A stretch of DNA of 35,834 bases from contig CADABS010000029.1 of NCBI GenBank assembly GCA_902786245.1, positions 1-35,834 on the forward strand, given 5' to 3'. This document shows positions 5,163-19,172 of the stretch, piece after piece. Within the stretch, counting starts at the first letter, position 1, and every line of letters starts with the position of its first letter. The DNA is from an uncultured Erysipelotrichaceae bacterium. Lineage in GTDB: Bacteria > Bacillota_I > Bacilli_A > Erysipelotrichales > Erysipelotrichaceae. A model generated the notes under the pieces. The model was not told the DNA's origin. It did no database searches and saw only the letters and a list, made by a program, of their open reading frames with translations. The position numbers were made by a program, and so were the translations under genes.

Positions 5163-5834
5163 ATGTTCTGTAAGAAATGCGGCCAGGAAATCCCTGATCT
5201 TTCAATGTACTGTCCCGAATGCGGTGCTTCGCAGTTCGGGGTGGAAACGAAAACACCTGAATTGATGACAGAAGGTTCACATACGGCAAAGGTCGTCGTC
5301 AAAGGCTATGACAATATGACCAATGCCATTACCATTGTCCGTGACGTTACCGGACTTGATTTTGTCGGCGCCCGGAAAGCAATCAGCGAACTGCCGGCAG
5401 TGCTGTTCACCAGTCTTTCCAATGAAGCTGCAGAAGAGTATGTCCGGCAGCTGAAAGAATGCGGCGTACAGGCAGAAGTGGAAGGCGGCGTTCCGTCAGA
5501 GCCTGTTTCGGTCGATGATGCACCGGCAGATCCGGAATTTGACAAAGAACTGGAAGCCTATGAAAAGGAACAGGAACTGATCATGCCGATGCCGAAGGAA
5601 GAACCTGCACCGGAACCTGAACCGGAACCGGAGCCTGCACATGCACCGGCTGAAGAACCGGCCCCTGCAGCGGAACCGTCCTTTGAAGAACAGATGGACG
5701 CATTCCTCAATACGCAGGAAGAAAAGAAAGAAGAACCGGAAATCGTGCTGACCCTGCCGTCGGAACCGGAAAAGAAATCCGACGAAGATTTCGATAAGGA
5801 AATGGCAGCCTTTCTGGCAGATCATAAAGAGTAA
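5163..5834 (+). CDS. Zinc-ribbon protein with an L7/L12 C-terminal-like domain and acidic tail
   Basis: 223 aa in three parts. Residues 1-25 form a zinc ribbon with Cys at 3, 6, 17 and 20. Residues about 42-107 match the ribosomal protein L7/L12 C-terminal fold (ITIVRDVTGL, GARKAISELP, AAEEYVRQL and GVQAEVEGG correspond to its helices and strands). From about 115 to the end is a Pro/Glu-rich low-complexity tail (EPEPEPEP type) ending in two related EEKK/FD(K)EMAAFL segments. The L7/L12 fold binds translation factors in the ribosome; whether it does so here is unknown. AAGGAG lies 8 nt before the ATG. No membrane segment. Confidence 0.65.
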   Translation: MFCKKCGQEIPDLSMYCPECGASQFGVETKTPELMTEGSHTAKVVVKGYDNMTNAITIVRDVTGLDFVGARKAISELPAVLFTSLSNEAAEEYVRQLKECGVQAEVEGGVPSEPVSVDDAPADPEFDKELEAYEKEQELIMPMPKEEPAPEPEPEPEPAHAPAEEPAPAAEPSFEEQMDAFLNTQEEKKEEPEIVLTLPSEPEKKSDEDFDKEMAAFLADHKE

Positions 5835-14176: not shown

Positions 14177-15343
14177 TCAGACAGATTTTTTTGCTTCTAT
14201 GATCATGCTTACAAGAGACATGATGACCGGAATGATCATGATGAAGGAACCGAGAAGGGCAGCGCTTCTGGCCCCGAAAGCATCCATCAGGGAACCGCTG
14301 TAGAGCAGGGCAATGATTCCGGCAAAGCTTCCGAAGGTCGCATCGCACATCGCATGGGCGGTGTTTTTCAATGTGCCGGAGACGGTGCTCTCCGTGATCT
14401 GACGCATTGTCGGCAGCAGCAGACCGTAGCCGATATTGTTCATGACCGTGCCGAGAATGATCATCAGCGGATTGACAGCCAGGAAAGTCAGGACGGCTGT
14501 GATCAGCGTGCACAGACTTGCCAGAAACAGACGGACATAGGGCGGCAGGCGGCGCAGGCTTCCGGAGATGAACAGCAGACATGCCTGCAGCATGACACCG
14601 GCAAACGCATCCATGCCCAGATTCGATACATCGCCGCCGACGCTTTCCAGGATGACGATCTTCAGATTGTTGATCGGGGAAATGGCCAGACCGGACAGAA
14701 AGAGAATGATGATCATATACATGTAAGGACGGATCTTCAGCAGATCCTTCGGACTGCCGCCTGCCCTGGAACGGATATTTTCATAGGGCTCTTCTCTGGT
14801 CAGAAAGGCAATAAGCAGTACGATTGCCGCAAAGAACAGGGAAGCTGCCGGAATCACCATGTAGCCGAAGACGGTGATCAGCTGTCCGCATACAAGCATG
14901 GCAACGGCATAGCCGGCCGATCCGACTGCCCGGGCTCTTCCGTAGACCGCAGCACTGCGGTTGAAGCTCCGCAGCATCCAGGAATCCAGATTGGATCCCA
15001 GCGGTGCCGAGAGGAAGCCGAACAGGGGATACAGCAGAGCGGAAATCATATAATTCTTTTCCGCCAGGAAATAGATGGCCATGGCGACAAGGATGGCGGC
15101 GGCGAACTCGGGAATGAATATCTTCCGGTTTGTACCGGCTTTGTCGCAGCGGCTGCCCCAGAAGAAGGAACCGATGAACGACATGCCCATGAATGCCGCA
15201 AGGGTCAGGCTCAGTACCGCACTGCTCATGCCGCAGCTTAATAAATAGGTTGTGATATATCCCGCAAATGCCGCATAGAAGGCCCAGTAGAGACTGTCCA
15301 GAAGACTGAAACTGAGAAATGTCCTGCCGCTGATCTGATCCAT
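14177..15343 (-). CDS. MFS permease (LacY/nucleoside-type symporter-like)
   Basis: 388 aa with about 12 hydrophobic segments and a short cytoplasmic loop after TM2 containing WGSRCDKAGTNRK, a degenerate MFS motif. The pattern is closest to the MFS_1-like group of sugar or nucleoside:H+ symporters; the substrate is not readable. The start at 15343 has GGAGGG upstream; an in-frame extension to 15379 lacks one. Monocistronic, with its own terminator, divergent from the YgjP-like gene. Confidence 0.8.
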   Translation of the reverse strand: MDQISGRTFLSFSLLDSLYWAFYAAFAGYITTYLLSCGMSSAVLSLTLAAFMGMSFIGSFFWGSRCDKAGTNRKIFIPEFAAAILVAMAIYFLAEKNYMISALLYPLFGFLSAPLGSNLDSWMLRSFNRSAAVYGRARAVGSAGYAVAMLVCGQLITVFGYMVIPAASLFFAAIVLLIAFLTREEPYENIRSRAGGSPKDLLKIRPYMYMIIILFLSGLAISPINNLKIVILESVGGDVSNLGMDAFAGVMLQACLLFISGSLRRLPPYVRLFLASLCTLITAVLTFLAVNPLMIILGTVMNNIGYGLLLPTMRQITESTVSGTLKNTAHAMCDATFGSFAGIIALLYSGSLMDAFGARSAALLGSFIMIIPVIMSLVSMIIEAKKSV

Positions 15344-15384
15344 AGCGTACCCTCCTTCAAACAGACGTGCGGCTATCATACCAT

Positions 15385-15413
15385 TTCTGTATAAGAATAA
15401 AAACTGATATAAT
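15385..15413 (+). promoter_or_regulatory. Promoter of the YgjP-like gene, abutting its start codon
   Basis: Extended -10 TGA-TATAAT (hexamer 15408-15413), weak -35 TTCTGT (15385-15390), 17-bp spacing. Six nucleotides separate the -10 from the ATG at 15420, placing +1 on the A of the start codon. Confidence 0.65.
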
Positions 15414-15419
15414 CATGCC

Positions 15420-16112
15420 ATGAGTGTTTTTGCGGCCGGAAAAGAAAGAAACGTACTGATTGAATATAAAAGGAACAGAAATATGTATCTGCGGGTCATG
15501 GATAACGGCGACCTGCATATTACCTGTCCCCGCCGGGTCTCAAAAGCGCAGATCCTTGCGTTTATCAGAGAAAAGGAAGACTGGATCCGGAAGACAGAGC
15601 AGAAGGAAAACAGAAGACAGGAACATACCCTGTGCGGTGAAGACGGAAAGACAGCCTGCTGGCTGGGCAGAAGACTGCCGGTGATCATTGAAAAGGGGAA
15701 TGAGTGCATCATGATCGCGGAAGAGGACTGTATCCGTTTCATCATACCCGACAGCAGTCCCGATACCATCCGCAGCGTATTCTATGAAGCTGCCGCGCAG
15801 CAGCTGCGCATCATGATCACAGACCGCCGGAACGAATGGGATGAAGCAATCTGCCGGGCAAACGGAAAACCGCTGCCGAAGATCACGCTGCGCTGGATGA
15901 CGAGCCGCTGGGGTTCCTGTACACCGGCAAAAGCATCCATCCGCATCTCGCTGCGGCTGATCCATTATCCGCCGGTGTGCCTGGACTATGTGCTTCTGCA
16001 TGAATATGCCCATATGCTCATCGGCGATCATTCCCGCCGGTTCTATGCCCTGATCGGAACCCATATGCCGGATTACCGGGAAGCGGTGCGTATATTGAGG
16101 GAACAGCGCTGA
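15420..16112 (+). CDS. YgjP-type zinc metalloprotease domain protein (DUF45/M48-like)
   Basis: 230 aa, usual family length. The zinc site HEYAH (His 194, Glu 195, His 198) is followed by a third ligand, probably His 204 in GDHSRRF. Upstream RWMTSRWGSC is the conserved YgjP signature. The N-terminal beta-sheet region starts at IEYKRNRNMYLRV, so homology demands the upstream start at 15420 rather than the internal ATG 15483, even though only the latter has a purine-rich AAAGGA before it. No Shine-Dalgarno lies before 15420, and an out-of-frame ATG-CCA-TGA at 15415 overlaps it. Cellular role unproven in this family. Confidence 0.85.
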   Translation: MSVFAAGKERNVLIEYKRNRNMYLRVMDNGDLHITCPRRVSKAQILAFIREKEDWIRKTEQKENRRQEHTLCGEDGKTACWLGRRLPVIIEKGNECIMIAEEDCIRFIIPDSSPDTIRSVFYEAAAQQLRIMITDRRNEWDEAICRANGKPLPKITLRWMTSRWGSCTPAKASIRISLRLIHYPPVCLDYVLLHEYAHMLIGDHSRRFYALIGTHMPDYREAVRILREQR

Positions 16113-16147
16113 AAAACTTTTCAGAAATTTTCTTTGAAAAGTTTTTT
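16112..16147 (+). terminator. Terminator of the YgjP-like gene
   Basis: Perfect 12-bp stem AAAAACTTTTCA/TGAAAAGTTTTT (16112-16123 with 16135-16146). The first base is the last base of the stop codon. Confidence 0.85.
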
Positions 16148-17085: not shown

Positions 17086-17099
17086 TCTGAGGTGAAATG

Positions 17100-19172
17100 A
17101 TGAGAGACTATTTAGCAAATGAAGTAAGAAACGTAGTGGTAATCGGCCACTCCGGCGCAGGCAAGAGTTCTTTGATCGAAGCATGTCTGTATTTCAATAA
17201 GCAGATCGAACGTTTCGGAAAAGCGGCTGACGGTACGACCGCACTGAATTTCGATCCGGAAGAAGGCAAGCGCGGACTGTCCGTATACTGCCATCTGGCA
17301 CCGGTTGAATGGAAGAACAGAAAGATCAACTTCATCGATACACCGGGGTACATGGACTATGAAGGTGAAGAAATCACCGGTCTGAATGTCGGCGACAATG
17401 CCCTGATCGTTGTCAACGGCAAGGAAGGCATCGAAGCGGGAACCGAAAGAGCCTGGAAGGAAGCTGTCAACAAGAGAAAGCTGCCGACCATCTTCTTCAT
17501 CAATAAGATGGATGATGAACATGCGCATTTCGACAAGGTATTCAATGAGCTGCGCGACAAGTTCGGCAAATCCGTCATTCCGTTTGAAATGCCGATCGTT
17601 GAAAACGGCAAGCCGGTAGGCTCTGTCAACATCCTCCGCAAGAAGGCATGGTATTTCAACAACCGCACCCAGCCCCAGGAAGTTCCGGCGGAACTGGCTG
17701 ACCAGGTCGAAGAATACTATGCGGAAATCGCTGAAGCAATCGCTTCGACAGATGATGAACTGATGGAAAAGTTCTTCATGGAAGAACCGTTCGATGAGCA
17801 CGAAATCGCCAAGGGACTCCGCATCGGTGTCCGCAGCGGCGAAATCCGTCCGGTATACTGCGGAAGCGCAGCAGATCAGATCGGTGTCGAAAGACTGATG
17901 GACCTGATCACCGAATACTTCCCGAGCTATGCGGAAAAGGGCCGTGTCAAGGCACTGAATGCCAAGGATGAACCGATTGACATGGAAACGAATGAAAATG
18001 AAGCAATGTCCGCATTCATCTTCAAGACGATCGTCGACCCGTTTGTCGGCAAGGTTTCCTATCTGAAAGTCATGAGCGGCGTTCTCAGCTCTGACTCGCA
18101 GGTATACAACTCCCGCAAGGATACAAATGAAAAGATCAACCAGATCTATGTCATCAACGGCAAGTTCCAGATCGGTGTCGGAAAGCTGTTCACCGGCGAT
18201 ATCGGCGCAGTCGTCAAGCTGCAGTCGACAGAAACCAATGATACGCTCTGCACAAAGAACAGAGTCGTTCACTATCCGGCAATCGAATATCCGGAGCCGA
18301 TGCTCGGATATGCGATCAGCCCGAAGACAAAGGCTGACGAAGACAAGCTGTCTGTCGGTATCAAGAACCTGATGCAGGAAGACGGAACGATCCGTCTCGA
18401 CAATAACGCAGAGACACATGAGCAGGTGCTCTACGGTCTGGGCGACCAGCACATCGATCTGATCGTTTCCAAGCTGAAGTCCAAGTACAAGGTTGAAGTT
18501 GAAACAAAGACACCGACCGTCCAGTACCGTGAGACGATCCGCGGCAAGGCAGAGGCACAGGGACGCTTCAAGAAGCAGAACGGCGGCGCCGGCCAGTACG
18601 GCGACGTATGGGTCCGCTTCGAACCGTGCGATTCCGAAGAAATGGTCTTCGCAGAAGAAGTCTTCGGCGGTGCCGTACCGAAACAGTACTTCCCGCCGAC
18701 AGAACAGGGACTCAGAGACTGTATGGAACACGGTGTCCTGGCCGGATACAAGGTTGTCGGTGTCAAGGCAACGCTGTATGACGGATCCTACCATCCGGTA
18801 GACTCCAAGGAAGTCGCGTTCAAGGAAGCAGCCCGTCTGGCATACAACAAGGCGATGCCGATGGCAAAGCCGACCCTGCTCGAGCCGATCGGAAAAGTCA
18901 CGATCACAGCACCGGAAGAATATACCGGCACGCTGATGGGCGACATCACAAAGAGACGCGGCATGATCATGGAGATGGAGATGAATGACGAGGGCGACCA
19001 GGTCATTCAGGCAGAAGTTCCGGTTGCGGCAATGCTGACATATGCAAACGAACTGCGCGCAATGACGCAGGGCAGAGGCAGATATGTCATGAAGTTCGAC
19101 CGCTATGAACCGGCTCCGAACGATGTTGCCGAGAAGGTCATCGCAGAAGCAAAGGCAAAAAAAGAAGCCTGA
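17100..19172 (+). CDS. EF-G-like translational GTPase (EF-G paralogue)
   Basis: 690 aa with the whole EF-G domain set: G domain (about 1-270), domain II (about 300-390), III, IV (about 480-600) and V. G1 is GHSGAGKS, G3 DTPGY, G4 NKMD. The switch I motif is GLSVYC instead of the canonical RGITI, and G1 differs from GHVDAGKT, both typical of the EF-G-like paralogue group rather than housekeeping FusA. Domain IV includes the GGAGQYGDVWV segment. Paralogues in this group are linked to translation under special conditions or ribosome recycling; the role here is unknown. Start 17100 is preferred over 17097 by spacing from GAGGTG. Confidence 0.88.
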   Translation: MRDYLANEVRNVVVIGHSGAGKSSLIEACLYFNKQIERFGKAADGTTALNFDPEEGKRGLSVYCHLAPVEWKNRKINFIDTPGYMDYEGEEITGLNVGDNALIVVNGKEGIEAGTERAWKEAVNKRKLPTIFFINKMDDEHAHFDKVFNELRDKFGKSVIPFEMPIVENGKPVGSVNILRKKAWYFNNRTQPQEVPAELADQVEEYYAEIAEAIASTDDELMEKFFMEEPFDEHEIAKGLRIGVRSGEIRPVYCGSAADQIGVERLMDLITEYFPSYAEKGRVKALNAKDEPIDMETNENEAMSAFIFKTIVDPFVGKVSYLKVMSGVLSSDSQVYNSRKDTNEKINQIYVINGKFQIGVGKLFTGDIGAVVKLQSTETNDTLCTKNRVVHYPAIEYPEPMLGYAISPKTKADEDKLSVGIKNLMQEDGTIRLDNNAETHEQVLYGLGDQHIDLIVSKLKSKYKVEVETKTPTVQYRETIRGKAEAQGRFKKQNGGAGQYGDVWVRFEPCDSEEMVFAEEVFGGAVPKQYFPPTEQGLRDCMEHGVLAGYKVVGVKATLYDGSYHPVDSKEVAFKEAARLAYNKAMPMAKPTLLEPIGKVTITAPEEYTGTLMGDITKRRGMIMEMEMNDEGDQVIQAEVPVAAMLTYANELRAMTQGRGRYVMKFDRYEPAPNDVAEKVIAEAKAKKEA

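Follow-up and report, generated by a model that had tools for sequence, protein, structure and literature searches.

The ygjP-like gene of an uncultured Erysipelotrichaceae bacterium as a candidate for a minor class of predicted leaderless genes in its genus and family

The DNA analysed here (the window, 35,834 nucleotides, contig CADABS010000029.1 of assembly GCA_902786245.1) originates from an uncultured Erysipelotrichaceae bacterium and carries a ygjP-like gene whose features are collected in Table 1. The translated product matches PF01863 (YgjP-like metallopeptidase) with 154.6 bits, for a cut-off (gathering score) of 26, and contains the sequence HEYAH, which we take to be an HExxH motif; we regard it as a putative metal-dependent peptidase. 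The gene lies back to back with an MFS transporter gene, whose likely start leaves about 76 bp between the two start codons. Inspection by eye revealed an extended –10 element belonging to the MFS gene (TGG-TATGAT, minus strand, within 15344–15419), and two extended –10 promoters would thus share this short interval. At the other end of ygjP, a hairpin of –12.8 kcal/mol (z of only –1.6) is consistent with, and not proof of, a single-gene transcript. Elsewhere in the window, a second EF-G-like GTPase of 691 aa is encoded downstream of ygjP (17097–19172, plus strand), and a 223-aa protein featuring a zinc ribbon and a ribosomal L7/L12 C-terminal-like domain is encoded at 5163–5834 (plus strand).

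Table 1. Features at the ygjP locus, in window coordinates
Feature	Position	Strand	Basis or status
ygjP-like metallopeptidase gene, 230 aa, PF01863	15420–16112	+	
Extended –10 promoter element TGA-TATAAT	15405–15413	+	sequence reading
6-nt discriminator CATGCC, –10 box to ATG	15414–15419	+	sequence reading
Predicted transcription start (+1), A of the ATG	15420	+	inferred from the –10-to-+1 distance
Out-of-frame ATG-CCA-TGA	15415–15423	+	probably chance
In-frame ATG of residue 22, weak SD (AAGGA)	15483–15485	+	rejected as main start
Hairpin at the ygjP stop codon, A/T-rich and with a 3' arm rich in T; possible intrinsic terminator	16111–16147	+	
Divergently oriented gene for an MFS transporter, probably starting at 15343, with GGAGGG before the start	14177–15343	–	

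Positions 15400–15425 read ...CTGATATAATCATGCCATGAG... and include a TGA (15405–15407), the hexamer TATAAT (15408–15413) and the ygjP start codon ATG (15420–15422). With k defined as the number of nucleotides between the –10 box and the ATG, the spacing at ygjP is k = 6. Extended –10 promoters of the housekeeping type have the consensus TGn-TATAAT and do not need a –35 match. The sequence at 15405–15413 has this consensus and is a predicted promoter of that type; its best –35 match reaches 2/6 (spacers of 15–19 nt were checked), and a promoter scan requiring 4/6 in the –35 hexamer returned no site at 15405. No Shine-Dalgarno (SD) sequence was found before ATG 15420, the duplex energy being +0.6 kcal/mol with an anti-SD string not taken from this genome. 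An earlier note on this DNA had claimed both an extended –10 ending 6 nt ahead of the ATG and the absence of an SD, and both claims are borne out. A single copy of the extended pattern TGNTATAATNNNNNNATG is present in the window, and none of 100 window shuffles contains it. The looser TATAATN{6,7}ATG has a chance expectation of 0.52 per window and is unremarkable by itself; because of this expectation, a proof of significance from the window alone was dropped and significance is carried by the comparative data.

The search for ygjP covered 60 relatives, of which 55 matched, and upstream regions were examined at 30 places including the own locus. These 30, together with one further uncultured Erysipelotrichaceae bacterium (L031; Bacillota, Erysipelotrichia), constitute the 31 orthologs considered, a distant Clostridium match (L032) being left out of the count. 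A –10-like box was defined as a match of at least 5/6 before an in-frame ATG. Such a box stands at k = 6–7 in 10 of the 31 orthologs, or nine after dropping L026, whose box lies inside the preceding gene (L001, L003, L007, L008, L009, L016, L022, L023 and L031 remain), and at k = 9–10 in three more (L002, L004 and L018). The other spacings predict about 1.0 ortholog at k = 6–7, giving a Poisson p of about 1e-6 that is nominal, the orthologs not being independent. As controls, the rsmE and ddl genes were searched, as was buk, in 35 relatives, 20 of them of the same genus, and 4 rsmE and 3 ddl loci were skipped, their alignments starting far from residue 1. The k = 6–7 arrangement was found in 0/27 ddl and 1/26 rsmE loci, and the ygjP excess is significant against each (Fisher p of 0.002 and 0.016, respectively).

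The nine k = 6–7 orthologs differ in their discriminator sequences and in their upstream neighbours, and they are scattered over a ygjP tree of poor support (6 of the 28 inner branches starred). The leaderless label is not significantly clustered on this tree, 69 of 500 shuffles being as low, and a single origin of the state was rejected on account of both the poor support and the unclustered label. The arrangement within k = 6–10 at a plausible start is missing in 19 of the 31 orthologs, several of which are SD-led or directly behind a gene. In six relatives (L012, L015, L021, L025, L026 and L029), ygjP follows an upstream open frame by no more than about 13 nt, and the gene therefore appears to have moved between predicted leaderless and operon-like settings. 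In these same six loci, the gene ahead of ygjP has a conserved C-terminus.

The earlier note had also suggested a genome-wide count of –10 motifs 6–7 nt before starts, and this count reveals an excess. The own-genome sample amounts to 835,834 bases (30% of the genome, 51% GC), in which a simple codon-usage caller produced 717 gene models. TATAAT stands at k = 6–7 before the ATG in 10 of them and at k = 8–10 in six, for three in the ten flanking spacings (0–5 and 11–14), so the excess at k = 6–7 has a p of 2.9e-6. Most other TATAAT boxes lie 15–36 nt away, where SD leaders fit. An SD of –5 kcal/mol or better accompanies 3/16 genes at k = 6–10 vs 71/84 at k = 15–40 (p 5e-7). A pyrimidine directly before the ATG was rejected as a mark of the start site, the two classes being alike (14/16 vs 64/84, p 0.51). 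In G115, which belongs to a second genus of the family, the box stands at exactly k = 6 in 14 of 252 gene models and at k = 7 in three, for eight in the ten flanking spacings (p 1.6e-8). The k = 6–7 peaks of the own genome and of G115 support A15420 as +1. ORF-based counts gave three genes at k = 6–7 vs three in the flanks in G034 (same genus, 48% GC; p 0.06, not significant), where 3/6 genes at k = 6–10 have an SD of –5 or better, and 4 vs 5 in G041 of the sister family (p 0.05, weak). The signal is thus beyond chance genome-wide and weak in G034 and G041.

Whole genomes were then counted by pattern, as TATAAT before an ATG directly preceded by a pyrimidine. Across the 36 genomes of the genus (own included), 1949 sites were found at k = 6–7 for 811 at k = 12–13 and 695 at k = 2–3, a 2.4-fold excess; k = 6–7 exceeds both controls in 36/36 genomes. 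The sister family (24 genomes) yielded 2958, 2670 and 1876 sites, respectively, which is 1.1-fold over the k = 12–13 control, with 21/24 genomes above that control. In a class-wide draw, the 56 genomes outside the family gave 3653 vs 3347. Among the three genomes drawn from other genera of the family, the excess is present in G115 (145 vs 60) and G094 (60 vs 35) and absent in G106 (30 vs 41). Four small genomes from other families of the class (G076, G084, G099 and G109) also display an excess of TATAAT 6–7 nt before ATG; the trait is therefore not unique.

In the own genome, TATAAT lies 6–11 nt before the ATG of genes assigned by Pfam to the MnmA, TruB, RsmE-type methyltransferase, MiaB-like radical SAM, RecG, HolA and biotin ligase families and of an EF-G-like/NYN fusion, the gene names used for leaderless-type members being our reading of these Pfam families. 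The fusion gene (L037:16441–18936, minus strand) encodes an EF-G/ribosomal-protection-type GTPase with a C-terminal YacP-like NYN nuclease domain (PF05991, 3e-39), and its TATAAT ends 8 nt before its own ATG. Within the window, the earlier note had attributed the geometry of ygjP to buk and ltaS as well. Both do have a box near the ATG, but neither is an exact match: buk has TGA-TATTTT (4/6) and ltaS has GATAAT without TG and without SD, each 7 nt before its start (ATG 29008 and ATG 2312, respectively). By eye, the buk orthologs L191 (TGA-TATTGT, 7 nt) and L194 (TAAAAT, 7 nt) are similar to buk of the window, the spacing in L189 and L192 is 9 nt, and SD-like sites are seen in some further orthologs. 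For rsmE, two orthologs of the genus (L115 and L125) have k of 8–10; rsmE was rejected as a second gene with a conserved leaderless state because only the one locus out of 26 has k = 6–7.

Recognition of an extended –10 by a housekeeping-type sigma factor is usually followed by initiation at a purine 7 nt past the box. At ygjP, the housekeeping-sigma RNA polymerase would recognise TGA-TATAAT without a –35 element, RNA synthesis would start at A15420 or within 1–2 nt of it, and the AUG of ygjP would be the first codon of the mRNA. It is established that leaderless mRNAs are translated from an AUG at their 5' end in the absence of an SD, and the ygjP message would be read in the same way, through the 70S or the 30S-fMet-tRNA route. 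We therefore predict, with a probability of roughly 0.85, that the ygjP mRNA is leaderless or nearly so (leader of 0–3 nt), as the earlier note had proposed. Its start codon, the distance to the –10 and the recurrence of the spacing in orthologs, genome, genus and family support this reading, from which we infer the 5' end of the message and the route of the ribosome. We regard the gene as a candidate for the minor class of leaderless genes predicted in genus and family.

This reading depends on the start codon, and ATG 15420 is secure. The nearest in-frame stop upstream lies at –15 and is the promoter's own TGA, and the interval between this stop and the ATG holds no alternative start codon. 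Were translation to begin at Met22, with the first 63 nt of the gene as a leader, it would profit from the AAGGA site (–5.8 kcal/mol with the same anti-SD string vs +0.6 at 15420), and the Pfam match begins only at residue 20. However, residues 2–21 are conserved nearly as well as residues 22–60 (40% identity, 224/554 aligned residues, vs 45% in the same 30 orthologs), the alignments begin by residue 5 in 26/30 of them, and translation of the orthologs L005, L006 and L011, which have an SD, begins at the position of residue 1. A main start at residue 22 would forfeit this conserved sequence and is for that reason barely credible; the claim that family homology starts upstream of residue 22 holds, both by this conservation and by the Pfam match from residue 20 on. 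The ATG-CCA-TGA announced as overlapping the start out of frame is present, but it is not conserved among the ygjP orthologs and would not be transcribed whole with a +1 at 15420, so it is probably due to chance; its role as a regulatory mini-ORF was rejected for want of conservation.

Other explanations concern the promoter. The polymerase might start a few bases upstream of 15420 and leave a leader of about 3–5 nt, giving an SD-less, near-leaderless message. The 8–10 nt spacings of the six own-genome models and the 9–10 nt spacings of three orthologs indicate that the class tolerates short leaders; the box of ygjP, however, is at 6 nt and G115 peaks at exactly this value (14 vs 3 at k = 7), which fits a +1 at the A of the ATG and makes such a leader unlikely. 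A leadered mRNA from a promoter further upstream, translated without SD, is highly improbable: leadered genes without SD do exist, and TATAAG at 15390–15395 (plus strand) is a weak –10-like match by eye, but it is without the final T, the space behind the divergent gene is only about 76 bp, no SD precedes 15420, and the recurrence of the 6–7 nt spacing in orthologs would be left unexplained. As for the TATAAT having arisen by accident in A+T-rich intergenic DNA, the expectation of the loose pattern would allow it, yet the extended form is absent from all shuffles, the excess extends to all 36 genus genomes counted and the box recurs in ygjP orthologs within different surrounding sequence, which renders this explanation close to negligible.

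The predicted leaderless ygjP mRNA has published counterparts. A survey of bacterial genomes reported leaderless ('TA-led') genes in 56/209 Firmicutes genomes, at a mean of 4.2%; within Firmicutes, most belong to Lactobacillales and Mycoplasma, the signal is TAtAAT, and a preceding TG peak is found in several low-GC genomes (Zheng et al. 2011, PMC3160421). TA-led genes lack an SD and have a Pribnow-like box some 12 bp ahead of the start codon (PMC3160421); ygjP shares both traits and, with its box 6 nt before a secure start codon, is a predicted member of that class. In the available part of the survey, Erysipelotrichia are not named, and the clade studied here also differs in GC content (51% in the own genome, 48% in G034). 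The view that leaderless mRNAs are uncommon in the phylum is right insofar as they are a minority; the implication of an oddity did not stand, since the class is recognised in that many Firmicutes genomes and predicted leaderless genes form a genus-wide class here.

In Deinococcus-Thermus, experiments demonstrated leaderless mRNA driven by a –10 motif that lies a few bp ahead of the ORF and is subject to a spacing requirement (PMC12340547). A –10 region adjoining the ORF is common to both systems, here as a prediction from sequence; it concerns about 30% of ORFs there (PMC12340547) vs about 1–2% of gene models in two samples of the genus and about 7% in G115, the class being counted here mainly with exact TATAAT. 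C. difficile has 15 potentially leaderless genes (PMC7438776) and B. methanolicus none with a 0-nt leader (PMC4342826). The two species resemble what is predicted for the genus studied here, SD-dominated genomes with few genes whose transcription starts at or near the start codon; a difference is that the genus has a distinct 6–7 nt excess over the 12–13 nt control. For leaderless translation, a role of fMet-tRNA-loaded ribosomes and IF2 has been described (PMC10783764). Leaderless genes of Erysipelotrichia were the subject of none of the papers listed in a literature search that had most subscription journals outside its scope.

The ygjP gene is thus a predicted example, in a new clade and a new gene, of a published minor class of Firmicutes genes and implies no new mechanism. 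It offers a clean comparative case, a probably leaderless gene within a Bacillota lineage where SD-led genes dominate. Gene finders that require an SD may place the start of such genes downstream of the true one, which for ygjP would mean residue 22. A broader idea, possible although we rather doubt it, is that genes of this uncultured Erysipelotrichales-type family inherit leaderless initiation individually, as a regulatory state, and that ygjP and a set of housekeeping genes would keep or regain an AUG-abutting –10 while their surroundings turn over. Several of the candidate housekeeping genes are, by protein family, RNA-modification or translation genes (mnmA, truB, rsmE and miaB), and, if the idea is true, ygjP and the whole set could be translated jointly under conditions that limit SD-dependent initiation. 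The signal is clear in the genus and part of the family and slight in the sister family, and ygjP switches among predicted leaderless, SD-led and gene-behind-gene arrangements in its relatives; a single genus should therefore suffice to test how leaderless initiation is gained and lost and what it does.
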